Shown here: piece after piece, positions 2,535-9,075 of the stretch
Layout of the letters: the number at the start of each line of letters is the position of its first letter
How positions within the stretch are numbered: the stretch's first letter is position 1
Assembly (NCBI RefSeq): GCF_030014915.1
Contig: NZ_JAGIXS010000008.1
Coordinates: forward strand, 248,001 to 312,000
Source: Pelomonas sp. V22
GTDB lineage: Bacteria > Pseudomonadota > Gammaproteobacteria > Burkholderiales > Burkholderiaceae_C
DNA: 64,000 nucleotides
Direction of reading: 5' to 3'
Notes under the pieces: model-generated
Database searches by the model: none
Told to the model about the DNA's origin: nothing
Seen by the model: the letters and a program-made list of their open reading frames with translations, nothing else
Made by a program: the position numbers and the translations under genes

Positions 2535-3641
2535 TCAGACCGGAATCAGTTCGTCTATGCCCACGGCACTGACGATGGCGCCCGACCCCCGGGTTTCGTA
2601 CATGTCGACCCGGTCCAGCTGTGGCAAGGCCGAGCGCCCCTTGGCCAGCACCCAGCTGGACAAACTGGCGGCATCGCCATCGGGCAGGTCGGCGATCTCG
2701 TAGAGCGGCCGGTGGTCAATGGCCTTGAAGATCGGATCGAACAGCCGCTTCACGTCACCAAAGTCCACGGTCCAGCCGGCCATTTCATCGAGCTCTGCGC
2801 TCAGATGCAGGCGCAAGGTGTAGGTATGGCCATGGATGCCACGCAGGATGTGGCCCTCGGGCGCGCGCTTCAGCTGGATCGCGCTGTCCAGCGTCAGCTC
2901 TTTCCAGATCCGGTAATTGCGGCCATCGAAATTCGCGCCGCAGCTGCCGGTTTCATAAACGGTGACCCAGGACAGCTCGGGCAACAGCGGCTTGATGCGC
3001 TCCCAAAGCCAGGCCGAGATCACCTCGCTGGTCGGGTTGTGCAGGCCCTCGATCTGGTTCAGGCACTGGTAGTTCAGGACCATGTGCAACGGCGACCAGA
3101 TTTCGTCCAGGTGGTCGTAGTCGATCGACAGATCGCGTTCGCCCAGATCCTGGTTGGCATGCAGGATCACCTCGAAGCCATGGCCATGCATGCGGCCGCA
3201 CTTGTGGCCCAGCGGCACATTGGGCAGCTGATGGGCCGCCTGGAAGCGGTAACGCCGCCAGACATGGGCCTGACCCGAGGCATCGAGGTCAACGCCGGAA
3301 TGCTGGGTGCTCTGCACGCCGATCTGCTGGATGCCCTGCACGCCGAACTCGGTTTGCAGACGATGGCGTATCCAGCGGGCGATGTTCTCGTCGGTTGGCT
3401 GCTCGATGGTCCGGTTCAGGAGCGCATGGTCCAGTGGCGCGACGCAGGCTTCCAGCCTGCGTCGCAGCTCCTCGACCTCACCGCCTGGGAACGGCGCCCA
3501 AGCCTCGGGCAGCTGGGCCCGCACGGTGGCGAAGTAGCTGTGGCCATGCAGGCCATGGCTGCGATGGCTGGGTGCCAGCAGTGGGATCTGGCAGGCGGAT
3601 TCAAAGCCGGCGGAAGCGGCGTAAAGCGTGGCGGTATTCAT
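2535..3641 (-). CDS. queD: triple-domain 6-carboxytetrahydropterin synthase (QueD-like)
   Basis: Converts dihydroneopterin triphosphate to 6-carboxytetrahydropterin, the step before QueE. At 368 residues it is three times the usual ~120. Three T-fold units are visible. Domain 1 (about 1-125) has HGLHGH with H32/H34 and the D71-H72 pair, but Ser28 where the catalytic Cys belongs and Cys17 in place of the first zinc His. Domain 2 (about 128-245) has the classical core: H137, C148, H152, H154 and E230-T231, but its Asp-His pair is N190-Y191. Domain 3 (about 246-368) has H270/H272, D309-H310 and E349-T350, but Leu266 for Cys and Ile255 for the first zinc His. In this family the catalytic triad spans two subunits, so a covalent trimer sharing one site is plausible. 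First gene of the operon with queE. Confidence 0.9.
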   Translation of the reverse strand: MNTATLYAASAGFESACQIPLLAPSHRSHGLHGHSYFATVRAQLPEAWAPFPGGEVEELRRRLEACVAPLDHALLNRTIEQPTDENIARWIRHRLQTEFGVQGIQQIGVQSTQHSGVDLDASGQAHVWRRYRFQAAHQLPNVPLGHKCGRMHGHGFEVILHANQDLGERDLSIDYDHLDEIWSPLHMVLNYQCLNQIEGLHNPTSEVISAWLWERIKPLLPELSWVTVYETGSCGANFDGRNYRIWKELTLDSAIQLKRAPEGHILRGIHGHTYTLRLHLSAELDEMAGWTVDFGDVKRLFDPIFKAIDHRPLYEIADLPDGDAASLSSWVLAKGRSALPQLDRVDMYETRGSGAIVSAVGIDELIPV

Positions 3642-4002
3642 GCGGAGACAACAGGCCCGGCCCCCTCACTGGGGACCGGCAGCTCGGCAGTGTGACATGG
3701 CCCGCAGGCGCAGCCAAACCAGGGGCGGGGGCTGTGGTTTGTGCACACGGCAGGCGAGGACTCTTATTCAATGATGATGTTGTCTTTCAGATTGGTGGTC
3801 GTAGTAGAGGGGGCCGATCTCTGTGGACAAGTGCTGAAGAGCCCCGGCTGACAAGCATTTAGCGAGCTCCAAAGCCTGTGTGTCCAGGGCCTGTGAGCGC
3901 CGGGACGAACCTACAACAAGTCCGCCGCCGGCTCCTCGCCTGTGGATAAGCCCCTGCTTGTTCAAGAACTCTGCACAGGTTTATGCATTGACAGCGGCCC
4001 GC
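3642..4002. other. gene-free region with DnaA boxes; replication-origin-like
   Basis: A perfect DnaA box TTATCCACA lies on the minus strand at 3941-3949; TTGTCCACA (one mismatch) at 3822-3830 on the minus strand; TTGTGCACA at 3739-3747 on the plus strand. Directly 3' of the 3822-3830 box, on the same strand, come a GC-rich block with five C (3809-3816 region), the trinucleotide tract CTACTACGACCACC (3794-3807) and an AT-richer stretch (3763-3793). Box, GC block, trinucleotide tract and AT-rich DNA in this order is the DnaA-trio unwinding architecture described in Bacillus subtilis. No dnaA, dnaN or rpmH gene is nearby. It may be oriC separated from dnaA, or a DnaA-titrating or regulatory site. 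Only three boxes in 210 bp, so the call is tentative. Confidence 0.4.
3657..3679 (-). promoter_or_regulatory. hairpin in queD leader
   Basis: CCGGCCCCC (3657-3665) can pair with GGGGACCGG (3671-3679) around a 5-nt loop, giving 9 bp with one wobble or mismatch depending on strand. It lies 16 nt upstream of the queD start, so it would sit in the transcript leader. It does not look like a preQ1 riboswitch. Role unknown. Confidence 0.3.
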
Positions 4003-5859
4003 TCAGAAGGTTTCCCAATCGCCATCGTTGGCCGGTGCAGCCGCCTTGGGTGCCGGGCTGGGCGCCGGAGCAGCAGGCCTGGGTGCGGCCGGTTTGGTCG
4101 GCTTGGACGGGCTGGCTGCAGCTTTTGCGGCGGAGGCAGCAGGCTTGGGCTGGGGCTTGCCGGCTGCAGGTCTGACGGCGGGCGTTGGCACCGTCCTCGC
4201 GGCTGCGGCCGGCTTGGCGGCACCCTGGTTGCTGAGCGCCGCACGCAGCGAACTGCTGGACCCGGTGCCGGTACGGAACACCGACACCACCTCGGCCAGG
4301 CGCTGGGCCTGCTCGCGCAGCGAAGACGCGGCGGCCGCGCTTTCTTCCACCAGCGCAGCGTTTTGCTGGGTCATCTGGTCCAGGCCGGTCACGGCCACAT
4401 TGACCTGGGCGATGCCGTCGCGCTGCTCGGTGGCCGAGGCGGCGATCTCGCCGATCATGTCGCTGACGCGGCCGACGCTGGCCACGATCTCCTGCATCAC
4501 GGTACCGGTCTGGCCGACCAGGGCGGCACCCGACTCGACCCGCTCGACCGAGGCATTGATCAGGCCCTTGATCTCCTTGGCCGCTTCGGCCGAGCGCTGG
4601 GCCAGGCTGCGCACTTCGCTGGCCACCACGGCAAAGCCGCGGCCCTGCTCGCCGGCACGGGCTGCTTCCACGGCCGCGTTCAGGGCCAGGATGTTGGTCT
4701 GGAAGGCAATGCCGTCGATCACGCTGATGATGTCGGAGATGCGCTTGGAGCTGGCCGTGATCTGCTCCATATTGCCGACCACCTGCTCCACCACCGAGCC
4801 GCCACGGGCTGCCGCCTCGGCCGCCGAAGCGGCCAGCTGGTTGGCCTGGCGGGCCGTGTCGGCCGACTGCGAGACCGTGGCCGTGATCTGCTCCATCGAG
4901 CTGGCCGTCTGCTGCAGGCTGGAGGCTGTCTGCTCGGTGCGGGCGCTGAGGTCGTGGTTGCCCGTGGCGATCTCGGCCGAGGCGGTGGACACCGACTCCA
5001 CGCCCTGCCGCACATCGCCCACCACCTTGCGCAACTGGCTGGCCATGCGGTTGAGGGCGTCGAGCAGCTGGCCGAATTCATCGCTGCGCCGGATGCTGGT
5101 CGAGGCCGAGAGGTCGCCATCGGCGATCAGGTTCGCGAGGTTCAGCGCATCGCCCAGCGGCTGTTTGATCGAGCGCACCAGCCAGACGGCACCCGCCAGC
5201 AGTGCGGTAACGATCGTGATCACTACCACCATGGCCACGCGCAGGGTCAGCTTGCGGCGCTCGTTCAGGTCGGCATCGGCCTCGTCCTTCTGCGTGGTTT
5301 GCAGCGAGGCGAAGTCGGCCAATGACTTCAGATAGACAACGACGGCCGGGTTGAAGGTCTGGCGAACCTCGTTGCCCGCCTCCTCGGCCTTGCCGGCGGC
5401 CTTGAGCTCGCGTGCCTTGGCCAGCGAGGCGAGCACGAGCTTGCGCTCGTCGGCAATGCGGGCCATCAAGGTCTTGTCCTTGTCGGTCAGCACCATCGCC
5501 TCGATGGCCTTCTGCACCTCGCTGATCTTGGCGATGGTGGCCGCGATCTCGTCCTTGAACAGCGCATCCACGGCCGGGTCGCTGCTGATGGCGGCAGCCT
5601 GGACGCGGGTCACATTGGTCGTGGTCATGCTCGCCCAGCGCTCGGCCGCTGCGCGCTTGGCGCCCATTTGCTGCTCGATGGCGGCCGCCTCGGCGTTCAG
5701 ATTGCCGGTACGCACCGAAGAAAAACCAATCAGGCCCACCAGGCTCACGATCACGGCCGCCACCGAGATCCAGAGGCGGCCGGCCACGCCCAGGCCTTGC
5801 AGCTTCAGGGCCACCGCGCTGCCAGCGCCGCTGCCGGGCGCACCGAAATTCATGCTCAT
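4003..5859 (-). CDS. methyl-accepting chemotaxis protein with CheR-tether tail
   Basis: Inner-membrane chemoreceptor of 618 residues. Transmembrane helix 1 spans about 29-48, the periplasmic four-helix-bundle sensor about 50-205, helix 2 about 205-230, then HAMP and a long cytoplasmic signalling hairpin. The hairpin tip reads IDGIAFQTNILALNAAVEAARAG, the conserved kinase-contact region. After it comes an Ala/Pro/Lys-rich linker of about 80 residues ending in DWETF, matching the xWxxF pentapeptide that recruits CheR and CheB in Tar/Tsr-type receptors. Start at 5859 (MSMNFG) has GGAGAC seven bases upstream. No che operon is adjacent; cheZ lies 40 kb away. Ligand unknown. It reads away from the origin-like region. 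Confidence 0.93.
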   Translation of the reverse strand: MSMNFGAPGSGAGSAVALKLQGLGVAGRLWISVAAVIVSLVGLIGFSSVRTGNLNAEAAAIEQQMGAKRAAAERWASMTTTNVTRVQAAAISSDPAVDALFKDEIAATIAKISEVQKAIEAMVLTDKDKTLMARIADERKLVLASLAKARELKAAGKAEEAGNEVRQTFNPAVVVYLKSLADFASLQTTQKDEADADLNERRKLTLRVAMVVVITIVTALLAGAVWLVRSIKQPLGDALNLANLIADGDLSASTSIRRSDEFGQLLDALNRMASQLRKVVGDVRQGVESVSTASAEIATGNHDLSARTEQTASSLQQTASSMEQITATVSQSADTARQANQLAASAAEAAARGGSVVEQVVGNMEQITASSKRISDIISVIDGIAFQTNILALNAAVEAARAGEQGRGFAVVASEVRSLAQRSAEAAKEIKGLINASVERVESGAALVGQTGTVMQEIVASVGRVSDMIGEIAASATEQRDGIAQVNVAVTGLDQMTQQNAALVEESAAAASSLREQAQRLAEVVSVFRTGTGSSSSLRAALSNQGAAKPAAAARTVPTPAVRPAAGKPQPKPAASAAKAAASPSKPTKPAAPRPAAPAPSPAPKAAAPANDGDWETF

Positions 5860-6007: not shown

Positions 6008-8215
6008 TCAGCGCCGGCCGCGTGACTGCCAGAGCGGCTTCTTGCCCTTGAGCTGGCGCTCGATGCCGTCGTTGAGCCGGTTGCGCAGGTCCACCACGTC
6101 GGCCAGGTGGCCGTAGACGCCGGGGAAGCGCAGGTCCAGCCACAGCCACAGCGTGCAGCTGCGCAGCGCCTGCTCCATGCGGTCCAGCCGGCTGCGCTCG
6201 TCCACATCGTCCAGGAACCAGGGCGCGCCCACCTGGCCGGCCAGCGCATGGCGCTGGGCCCAGTCCAGGTACTCCTGCACCTGGCTGTCGGTGCGGCTGT
6301 CCACCGGCGCCTGGGCGTAGATGAAGCGGGTCTTCAGCGGCAGCTGCGGTGCCGAGCGGTCCAGCGCCTCGGCCAGCTGCAGCATCTGCTCCAGCTCGGC
6401 CACAGCGAAGTGAGCATCGTCGAGGCGCAGCCGGTCCATGAAGACCTTCAGCACGGCCTCGAGCTTGTTGAAGCCGAGGCTGCTGGCGATGGTCTGCACA
6501 TGCCACCAGTTCGGTGCCACGGCGGCCTTGAAGTCGCGCGGCGCCCGCGGCTGCTTGGGCAGCAGCTCGCGCAGGGTCTTGCCGGCACTGGCCTCGGCCT
6601 CGCGCAGCACGCCGACAAAGCCCTCGTCATGCATGCCATAGCGGCCGGCGCGGCCGGCGATCTGGTGCACTTCAGAGACCGTCAAGGAGCGGTCGCCCAC
6701 GCCGTCGAACTTGCTCAGGGTGCTGAACAAGACGCGGCGTATCGGCAGGTTGAGGCCCATGCCGATGGCATCGGTTGCCACCAGCACATCGCTGGCGCCA
6801 ACGGCAAATCGCTCGGCCTCTCGGCGCCGAACTTCAGGAGGTAGCGCCCCGTAGATCACCGAGACCGGATGGCCGGCGGCCGACACCTGGTCGCGCAGCA
6901 TCAGCACCTCGCGGCGGCTGAAGGCCACGACCGCGTCGCCCTTCTTCAGTGCCGTCATGGGGACCGGCGCCGGCAGCAGCTGCACCTCCTGCTTGCGCTC
7001 GAAATGGCGCACCGTGCAGCGCTCGCCGCACAGGCCCAGCAGGTTCTCGATGGCCGGCACGGCATAGGCCGAGCAGATGATGATCAGCTCGTTCGCCGGC
7101 ACCGCGACGATGGCCTGAGTCCATGCCCAGCCGCGGTAGTTGTCGAACAGCATCTGCGCCTCGTCGACCACGGCCACGTCGATCGGCCGGCCGGTATCGA
7201 CCATCTCGATGGTGGACGAGACCACGCGGGCGTTGTCGGCCGGAACGTTCTCTTCGCCTGTGAGCAGCGAGCAGGGCACGCCGCGCGCCACCAGGCGGTC
7301 GCGGCCCTCCAGCGCCAGCAGGCGCAGCGGTGCGAGGTAGGCGCCATCATGGGCCGCCGCCAGCTTCTCGAAGGCCGCATGGGTCTTGCCGCTGTTGGGC
7401 GCGCCCACATAGAGCGTCACGGTGCGCTGCATGTTGCGGGCGAGTTCGAAGCTGTCGGGGTAGCCCTGGAAGGCCAGCTGCCGCTCCAGCTTCTGCAAGG
7501 TGCTGATCTCGGCTACGCGCTGTTCCCAGCGGTCCTGCGCGCGGGTGCAGGCTGCCAGCAGGGCCGGCAGCGGCTGGGGCGTTGCGCATTCGGCCTGCAG
7601 GCGCGGCAGCAGCGAATCAAGCTGCTCCGGATGGCCGGAGGTGCTGCGTGCCAGCAACTGCTGCAGATGGGATTGCAGCGCGGCGGCATCGGCATAGGCC
7701 GGTGCCGGGCCCAGCGCCTGCTGCAGCGTGGCCAGGTCGCCATCACGGTAGAAGTTCCAGACCGGCGCGGCATCCGCCAGCGGCAATTGATAGGCCACCG
7801 TGAGCTGGCCTTCGAGCAGTGGCTGCTTGCACAGCCGCAGCCATTGCAGGCCGGCGCGCCGCAGGCCCAGCGCTTCCAGCTGGGTGCTACGTTGCTGCAT
7901 CAGCGCTCTGAGGGTGGGGCCCGTGCCCAGGGCCTCGAGATGCCTCAACGCAGTGGCAATCAGGTCCGGCGCGATCCAGCGGCTGGGGCGACCGCCTGCG
8001 GCGGCCTTGGAGATCTGCACCAGGCCCAGCTGGTCGGCGTCCTCGCCCTCGTCCAGGTCGGCCGGTGTCAGCACTTGCGGCAACTGGTAGGCGGCCTGGC
8101 GGATCTGCTGCCATTGCTCGGGCAGCAGCCCCGGCGGCAGGCGCTTCAGGTGGCGGGGATTGGGCAGGGCCAGCGAGGGCGCGGCGGCGGGAGAGGGGGA
8201 TTGAACTTCGGACAC
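6008..8215 (-). CDS. SUV3-type superfamily 2 RNA helicase
   Basis: ATP-dependent helicase related to the mitochondrial degradosome helicase SUV3; bacterial homologues are known mainly from alpha- and betaproteobacteria. About 735 residues from the chosen start. Motifs in order: Walker A GAPNSGKT, VVDEAQM (Walker B, DEAQ), SAYAVPA (motif III position), AFSRREV, YGALPPEVRRREAERF, TDAIGMGLNLP (motif V) and QIAGRAGRYG (motif VI). A SUV3-like C-terminal helical region follows, ending in a basic tail (QSRGRR). The frame stays open to 8443, but that would overlap the next gene by 180 nt; GTG at 8215 (protein VSEVQSPSP) leaves a 47-nt gap. The start has no clear Shine-Dalgarno sequence. The N-terminal 250 residues match nothing I recognise. 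Probable role in RNA turnover is inference. Confidence 0.85.
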   Translation of the reverse strand: MSEVQSPSPAAAPSLALPNPRHLKRLPPGLLPEQWQQIRQAAYQLPQVLTPADLDEGEDADQLGLVQISKAAAGGRPSRWIAPDLIATALRHLEALGTGPTLRALMQQRSTQLEALGLRRAGLQWLRLCKQPLLEGQLTVAYQLPLADAAPVWNFYRDGDLATLQQALGPAPAYADAAALQSHLQQLLARSTSGHPEQLDSLLPRLQAECATPQPLPALLAACTRAQDRWEQRVAEISTLQKLERQLAFQGYPDSFELARNMQRTVTLYVGAPNSGKTHAAFEKLAAAHDGAYLAPLRLLALEGRDRLVARGVPCSLLTGEENVPADNARVVSSTIEMVDTGRPIDVAVVDEAQMLFDNYRGWAWTQAIVAVPANELIIICSAYAVPAIENLLGLCGERCTVRHFERKQEVQLLPAPVPMTALKKGDAVVAFSRREVLMLRDQVSAAGHPVSVIYGALPPEVRRREAERFAVGASDVLVATDAIGMGLNLPIRRVLFSTLSKFDGVGDRSLTVSEVHQIAGRAGRYGMHDEGFVGVLREAEASAGKTLRELLPKQPRAPRDFKAAVAPNWWHVQTIASSLGFNKLEAVLKVFMDRLRLDDAHFAVAELEQMLQLAEALDRSAPQLPLKTRFIYAQAPVDSRTDSQVQEYLDWAQRHALAGQVGAPWFLDDVDERSRLDRMEQALRSCTLWLWLDLRFPGVYGHLADVVDLRNRLNDGIERQLKGKKPLWQSRGRR

Positions 8216-8262
8216 AGGCTCAAGTGGAACACAGGCCTTGCCCCTGCCTGGCCCGACTTGGC

Positions 8263-9075
8263 TCAGCTGGCGCGATAAAACCAGCGGCGCGCGCCCTCGA
8301 TCTCGAAGGGCTTCCACTGCCCGGCCGGCTGGGCCAGACGGTCGGCCACGGCGTACAGCGCAAACGGGTTCATGCCCATGCCGCAGTGGCTGGCCAGCAC
8401 CTCGATGTTCTCGCTGGTGGGGCTCGGATCCATCACGCTGCACTGCCAGGCGACCACGCCGTCGGTCTTGGAATAGAGCGAAGTCGTCGGTACCGGCGGC
8501 GTGCGGCGGATTTCCTCCAGCAGTTCGTGGTCATGGACCCGCTGGCCGCTCACCAGCTCGAAGAAGCGCCAGGCATTGGTGGCGCGCGGATGGCCGGTGA
8601 AGGGCGTTCCGAGCGTGATCACCGAGCGCACATGGTCGGGCAGCTCCTTGGCCAGCTCGCGGGCATAGATGCCGCCGAGGCTCCAGCCGATCAGGCTGAC
8701 CGGCCGCGCATGGGCGCGGAAAAGGCGCTTGACCTCGGCCGTGCAATGCTCGAGCACGCCGTCGCGCGGCCCGAAATTGAAGCCATGGCCCCAGGGGTGG
8801 GTGACATAGCCGAGCTCGTCCAGGAAGCGGCGCAGGGCCAGCGTGGTGAAGTCATTGGCGCCGAGGCCGGGGAAAACGATGACCGGGTGGCCGTCGCCCC
8901 GGGGCAGCTTGCGCAGCCAGGGCGACGCGGCCAGCAGGGCGGCGAACTCCCAGGGCGCGCGGCCCTCCAGCAGCATCAGCCAGGCATTGGGGGCGCGCAG
9001 CTCCTCGTCGGATCCAGCGGGCACGGCGGCCGCAGCGGCGCTGCGACGGGCTTGTTTCTGAGGCATGACCGGCAT
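8263..9075 (-). CDS. alpha/beta-hydrolase (lipase-like)
   Basis: About 270 residues from MPVMPQKQ at 9075 (an in-frame ATG at 9066 is equally possible; neither has a strong ribosome-binding site). The nucleophile elbow is GWSLGG (GxSxG). The strand before it, PVIVFPGLGANDFT, is a typical oxyanion-hole HGxG-equivalent. The acid and histidine are probably in KTDGVVAW and ASHCGMG. No signal peptide, so cytoplasmic. It lies 47 nt upstream of the helicase on the same strand and may be co-transcribed. Substrate is unknown: lipase and acyltransferase-like esterases share these features. Confidence 0.8.
   Translation of the reverse strand: MPVMPQKQARRSAAAAAVPAGSDEELRAPNAWLMLLEGRAPWEFAALLAASPWLRKLPRGDGHPVIVFPGLGANDFTTLALRRFLDELGYVTHPWGHGFNFGPRDGVLEHCTAEVKRLFRAHARPVSLIGWSLGGIYARELAKELPDHVRSVITLGTPFTGHPRATNAWRFFELVSGQRVHDHELLEEIRRTPPVPTTSLYSKTDGVVAWQCSVMDPSPTSENIEVLASHCGMGMNPFALYAVADRLAQPAGQWKPFEIEGARRWFYRAS

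Follow-up and report, generated by a model that had tools for sequence, protein, structure and literature searches.

Bacterial chromosomes are usually assumed to have a single replication origin, often next to dnaA, and genome tools set the first position of a chromosome at dnaA, which they treat as the origin. In E. coli, oriC lies tens of kb from dnaA on the one chromosome, not far from mnmG (gidA). A stretch of 64,000 nucleotides from the genome of Pelomonas sp. V22 (5.08 Mb in 27 contigs), covering positions 248001-312000 of contig C8 and referred to here as the window, raises the question of where the origin of this bacterium lies. A sequence-only reading had noticed an origin-like arrangement of DnaA boxes in the gap between a queD gene and a chemoreceptor gene, and had offered three explanations for it: an oriC away from dnaA, the origin of a second replicon, or a DnaA titration or control site. 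We infer, with high confidence, that the segment at window positions 3746-3994 is the primary oriC of the chromosome, which once lay between dnaA and dnaN and has since moved into the gap that separates the chemoreceptor gene from queD.

The domain content of the two flanking minus-strand genes agrees with the names given to them by that reading. The QueD-family gene (2535-3641) matches PTPS domains (PF01242, E=3.8e-52), and the gene on the other side (4003-5859) encodes a methyl-accepting chemotaxis protein (MCP; PF00015, PF00672 and PF12729). The QueD-family protein is 368 aa long and has three PTPS-matching stretches, being longer than a single-domain QueD; a Suv3-type RNA helicase gene is found at 6008-8443. 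No dnaA is present in the window, as had been stated, and a search placed it on the same contig, 103 kb from the module (dnaA at about 148 kb, module at 251.8 kb of C8).

The whole module lies on the minus strand and was delimited by an alignment of modules (A1) and by its match to a module model (R1). In the alignment the conserved block extends to about 3994, and its upper part had been overlooked. Box 1 (TTATCCACA, 3941-3949, minus strand) is perfect and nearly invariant in sets of 30 and of 103 aligned modules, and box 2 (TTGTCCACA, 3822-3830, minus strand), found in the box motif scan, has one mismatch, both as first described. The two are separated by 119 bp, start to start, and by 118-120 bp in relatives. 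A third box proposed at 3739-3747 was rejected, as it reads TTGTGCACA, with two mismatches, and falls outside the conserved block. Relatives carry an inverted third box (TGTGGACAA or TGTGGATAA) 28 bp before box 1; comparison with them places its decayed counterpart in our module at 3969-3977 on the plus strand, where the minus strand reads TGTGCAGAG. Between the two boxes, an inner element ACTTGTTGTAG (3911-3921, minus strand; AAGTTGTTRTC in the family) occupies columns conserved in the 103 modules and, judged by this conservation, may be a weak half-box. The most constant parts of these 103 modules are the inverted box, box 1, the AAGTTGTT block, CCCACA.GCTT, CAAGTgCTTG, box 2 and CTCTACTA..AC.AC.A.

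Downstream of box 2 and on the same strand, a 14-bp spacer that includes a GC-rich block leads to the tract CTACTACGACCACC (3807-3794), and this is followed by an AT-rich stretch (3754-3793, minus strand; a 40-mer with 62.5% AT) that is likely to be the unwinding element. DnaA-trios are read 3'-5' on the strand opposite the box strand, where our tract gives 3'-GAT GAT GCT GGT GGT-5' and the consensus of the 103 modules, CTACTAcgACTACtA, gives 3'-GAT GAT NCT GAT GRT-5'; there are two canonical trios in our copy versus four in the family consensus, with the third position interrupting. The DnaA-trio system (PMC8287927, PMC6669920) consists of a box, a GC-rich spacer of about 14 bp, CTA repeats and AT-rich DNA, and the order and orientation of these parts, to which the sequence-only reading had drawn attention, are the same here. 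The published search rule demands at least three consecutive NAN trios, and a box within 0-16 bp of the tract (PMC8287927). Our tract lies within that distance of its box but does not have three canonical trios in a row, and the third trio deviates throughout the family; consequently, we call it trio-like rather than a member of the class under that rule.

Could such an arrangement be a chance cluster, or be conserved merely as the leader or promoter of queD? The module lies just upstream of queD, and the number of DnaA boxes in the window is ordinary (three versus 2.06 expected), so that box count, not being above chance, was rejected as evidence for an origin. The arrangement of the boxes, however, is not ordinary: a pair of boxes spaced by 100-130 bp and a box with CTAYTA within 5-20 bp after it each occur once in the 329-kb contig, at the module, and neither arose when the contig was simulated 40 times with a first-order Markov model. 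The two boxes, conserved as a pair, lie in an intergenic gap of 361 bp, and the AT-rich region adjoining box 2 has a composition attained by just 0.08% of 40-mers in a contig with 33% AT. Most Roseateles/Paucibacter/Pelomonas-like genomes have a pair of boxes 118-120 bp apart upstream of queD, usually with the inverted box 28 bp before the pair. No module, however, was found near queD in eight more distant queD relatives (L033-L038, L041 and L043), which indicates that queD itself does not carry the module along, and in other genera the module is found in the dnaA-dnaN gap and in other places. The probability that we assign to chance or to a leader function is close to negligible.

The relation of the module to a conventional origin is seen in three outgroup genomes (G004, G013 and G019), where a homologous module fills the dnaA-dnaN gap and ends just before the start of dnaN. 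These Burkholderiales dnaA-dnaN origins share with our module the boxes, at a spacing of 118-120 bp, the trio tract and the inner elements; ours differs in lying 103 kb away beside queD and in the decay of its inverted box and later trios. The ancestral site in our genome is empty, its dnaA-dnaN gap being short and containing neither DnaA boxes nor a module. Model R1 matched 246 of 251 genomes of the family, one to three times each, and matched our genome once (E=7.3e-42, C8:251762-251993, window 3762-3993), with no second copy in the genome. Among 15 other families of the order it gave five weak matches, the best with E 1.9e-12, so that the module in its present form appears largely specific to this family.

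These observations bear directly on the suggestion that the module titrates or controls DnaA, as datA or DARS do in E. coli, while the working origin lies elsewhere. A place for such an origin could be the cluster of DnaA boxes upstream of dnaA (C8:147,247-147,915), which is also present in relatives; those boxes probably serve dnaA autoregulation. The titration explanation fails because the genome has no other copy of the module, which is thus the sole homologue of an origin there rather than something distinct from it, and whose outgroup counterpart is the dnaA-dnaN element itself. An inverted pair of boxes 60 bp apart was also observed upstream of dnaA in our genome and in G001, G009, G013, G015 and G019.

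GC skew, which the sequence-only reading had proposed as a check, points to the module as well. Along contig C8, the cumulative skew is lowest at 245,709, near the module and not near dnaA, although this contig alone leaves the change point loosely placed (bootstrap 95% range 25-309 kb) and the arm to the right of the module has a skew of only +0.005 (p=0.33). The module location gives a log-likelihood gain of 3.1 for the skew change, versus 0.14 for dnaA, which explains essentially none of it. In G001 and G254 the minimum falls inside the 10-kb bin of the module, with dnaA 52 and 96 kb away, respectively, and in G020 and G260 it is also at the module and not at dnaA. Agreement is less sharp in G228, with two near-equal minima between 672 and 752 kb (module at 672, dnaA at 972), and G009 is ambiguous, with dnaA (1523) on one side of its sampled minimum at about 1545-1565 kb and the modules (1605/1608) on the other. 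When our genome, G001 and G254 were pooled, mean skew was -0.018 in the interval from dnaA to the module (p=1.5e-7) and +0.018 on the far side of the module (p=8.7e-10). That reading had named a skew minimum and dnaA-linked boxes elsewhere, together with a stretch not conserved in close relatives, as evidence against an origin here; the minimum does not lie at dnaA, and the stretch is conserved. With the skew minimum at the module in five relatives, we consider a titration or control site very improbable.

The only TGTTTCACGTGNAACA (parS) sites of the genome are at C8:229,624 and 230,759, about 21-22 kb from the module, within ORFs that we take, from their sequence, to be mnmG and rsmG beside parA. 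Parallel to this, parS-like sites are found 9-53 kb from a module in G001, G254, G260 and G020. The distance from dnaA is all that would suggest the origin of a second replicon or of an integrated plasmid, and this explanation is unlikely in the extreme because dnaA, the putative mnmG-rsmG-parA genes and the parS sites share the contig of the module. Furthermore, the surroundings of the module are collinear with those in G001, a genome of the same genus, single-contig genomes have dnaA and the module on one contig, and no Rep gene was noticed beside it on unsystematic inspection. Some 50 kb of the DNA that separates dnaA from the module (G000:C8:158376-207479, in our genome) is inverted relative to G001, which partly accounts for the different distance between them (103 kb versus 52 kb). 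KOPS-like motifs gave inconsistent results: those to the right of our module (G000:C8:251850-329445) number 2 on the plus and 14 on the minus strand, a bias opposite to that expected of a rightward replichore, whereas those of G254 agree with expectation (37/8).

Together, the homology to the dnaA-dnaN origin, the skew, the nearby parS sites and the near-universal presence in the family support an oriC away from dnaA. At such an origin, DnaA would bind box 1, box 2 and weaker sites between the two; from box 2, a DnaA-ATP oligomer would grow over the 14-bp spacer to the single strand that faces CTACTA (3'-GATGAT-5') and open the AT-rich stretch at 3754-3793, where the helicase would be loaded, and the origin would fire. 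Like oriC of E. coli, our module is apart from dnaA on a shared chromosome and not far from the putative mnmG; it differs in architecture, and in the family its position varies and copies are often two or three.

This variation was surveyed in 56 near-complete genomes, all having both dnaA and the module. All copies are at dnaA in 20 of them, none is in 34, and two have both; the expectation that oriC in Burkholderiales lies beside dnaA, from which the sequence-only reading had started, thus does not hold in this family, and taking dnaA as the origin would be wrong for most of the near-complete genomes tested. The nearest module in the 34 genomes is 4-460 kb from dnaA, some chromosome lengths being rounded and no wrap-round being applied where the length was unknown. 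With the origin away from dnaA, analyses of skew, gene dosage and growth rate (peak-to-trough) anchored on dnaA would be biased. The two genomes with both, G137 (contig C3) and G268 (contig C1), carry one module between dnaA and dnaN and another 25-29 kb away, and are candidate intermediates of origin relocation; G198, whose genus code is that of G268, has the dnaA copy only, which fits a recent copying event. Relocation would proceed by insertion of a copy tens of kb from dnaA, coexistence of the two copies and loss of the original. The module tree requires several changes of place, and we claim no number of relocations, since most of its deep branches are weakly supported.

Two or three copies of the module are carried by 20 of the 56 genomes; strains with two include Pelomonas sp. 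BJYL3 and Roseateles subflavus. At many queD loci a second whole module is found on the far side of queD, 0.6-2.8 kb past the gene, and in L015, L016, L019, L011, L013, L022, L027 and L040 two complete modules in one orientation flank queD, at about 3.7 kb and 5.8-8.1 kb of the locus. In five groups of related species with two copies, identity between species is 70-91% for copies that share a place, and 53-65% for the two copies within one species, which indicates that the duplicates are old and have been inherited as separate orthologous lineages across species. For the most part they have kept their boxes and trio tracts, which suggests that selection acts on both copies. Box 2 is altered in some of the second copies (CTGTCCACA; L010, L014, L023 and L028), a possible sign, read from sequence, of partial loss of function.

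We put forward, as a proposal to which we give slightly less than even chances, that the origin of this family is a mobile, copyable unit, which would have been copied several times to places 4-460 kb from dnaA with loss of the old copy, and of which many lineages would have kept two or three complete modules, a few hundred bases to tens of kb apart, for long as alternative or joint starts on one chromosome. The natural intermediates and long-kept duplicates make such a change or sharing of origins directly testable. The portions consulted of the Ori-Finder papers (PMC10225481, PMC4403523) note that oriC can be found away from dnaA and that there may be more than one oriC, and do not include the present case; the literature searched yielded nothing on oriC of Roseateles. 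The double origins predicted by Ori-Finder/DoriC (PMC4403523) and the displaced oriC of cyanobacteria (PMC6323995) are likewise cases in which one bacterial chromosome is predicted to have several origins or one distant from dnaA, but they are isolated predictions, whereas here one homologous module is followed through a family, intermediates included. In bipartite origins, as in H. pylori and B. subtilis, two parts also lie within a few kb of each other or closer, but in the duplicated relatives each of the two is a whole module that has a trio tract to itself, and such modules may fire singly or jointly. A divergent pair was observed in G163 (C1:2591174-2591705, L092), where about 70 bp separate two modules of opposite orientation.
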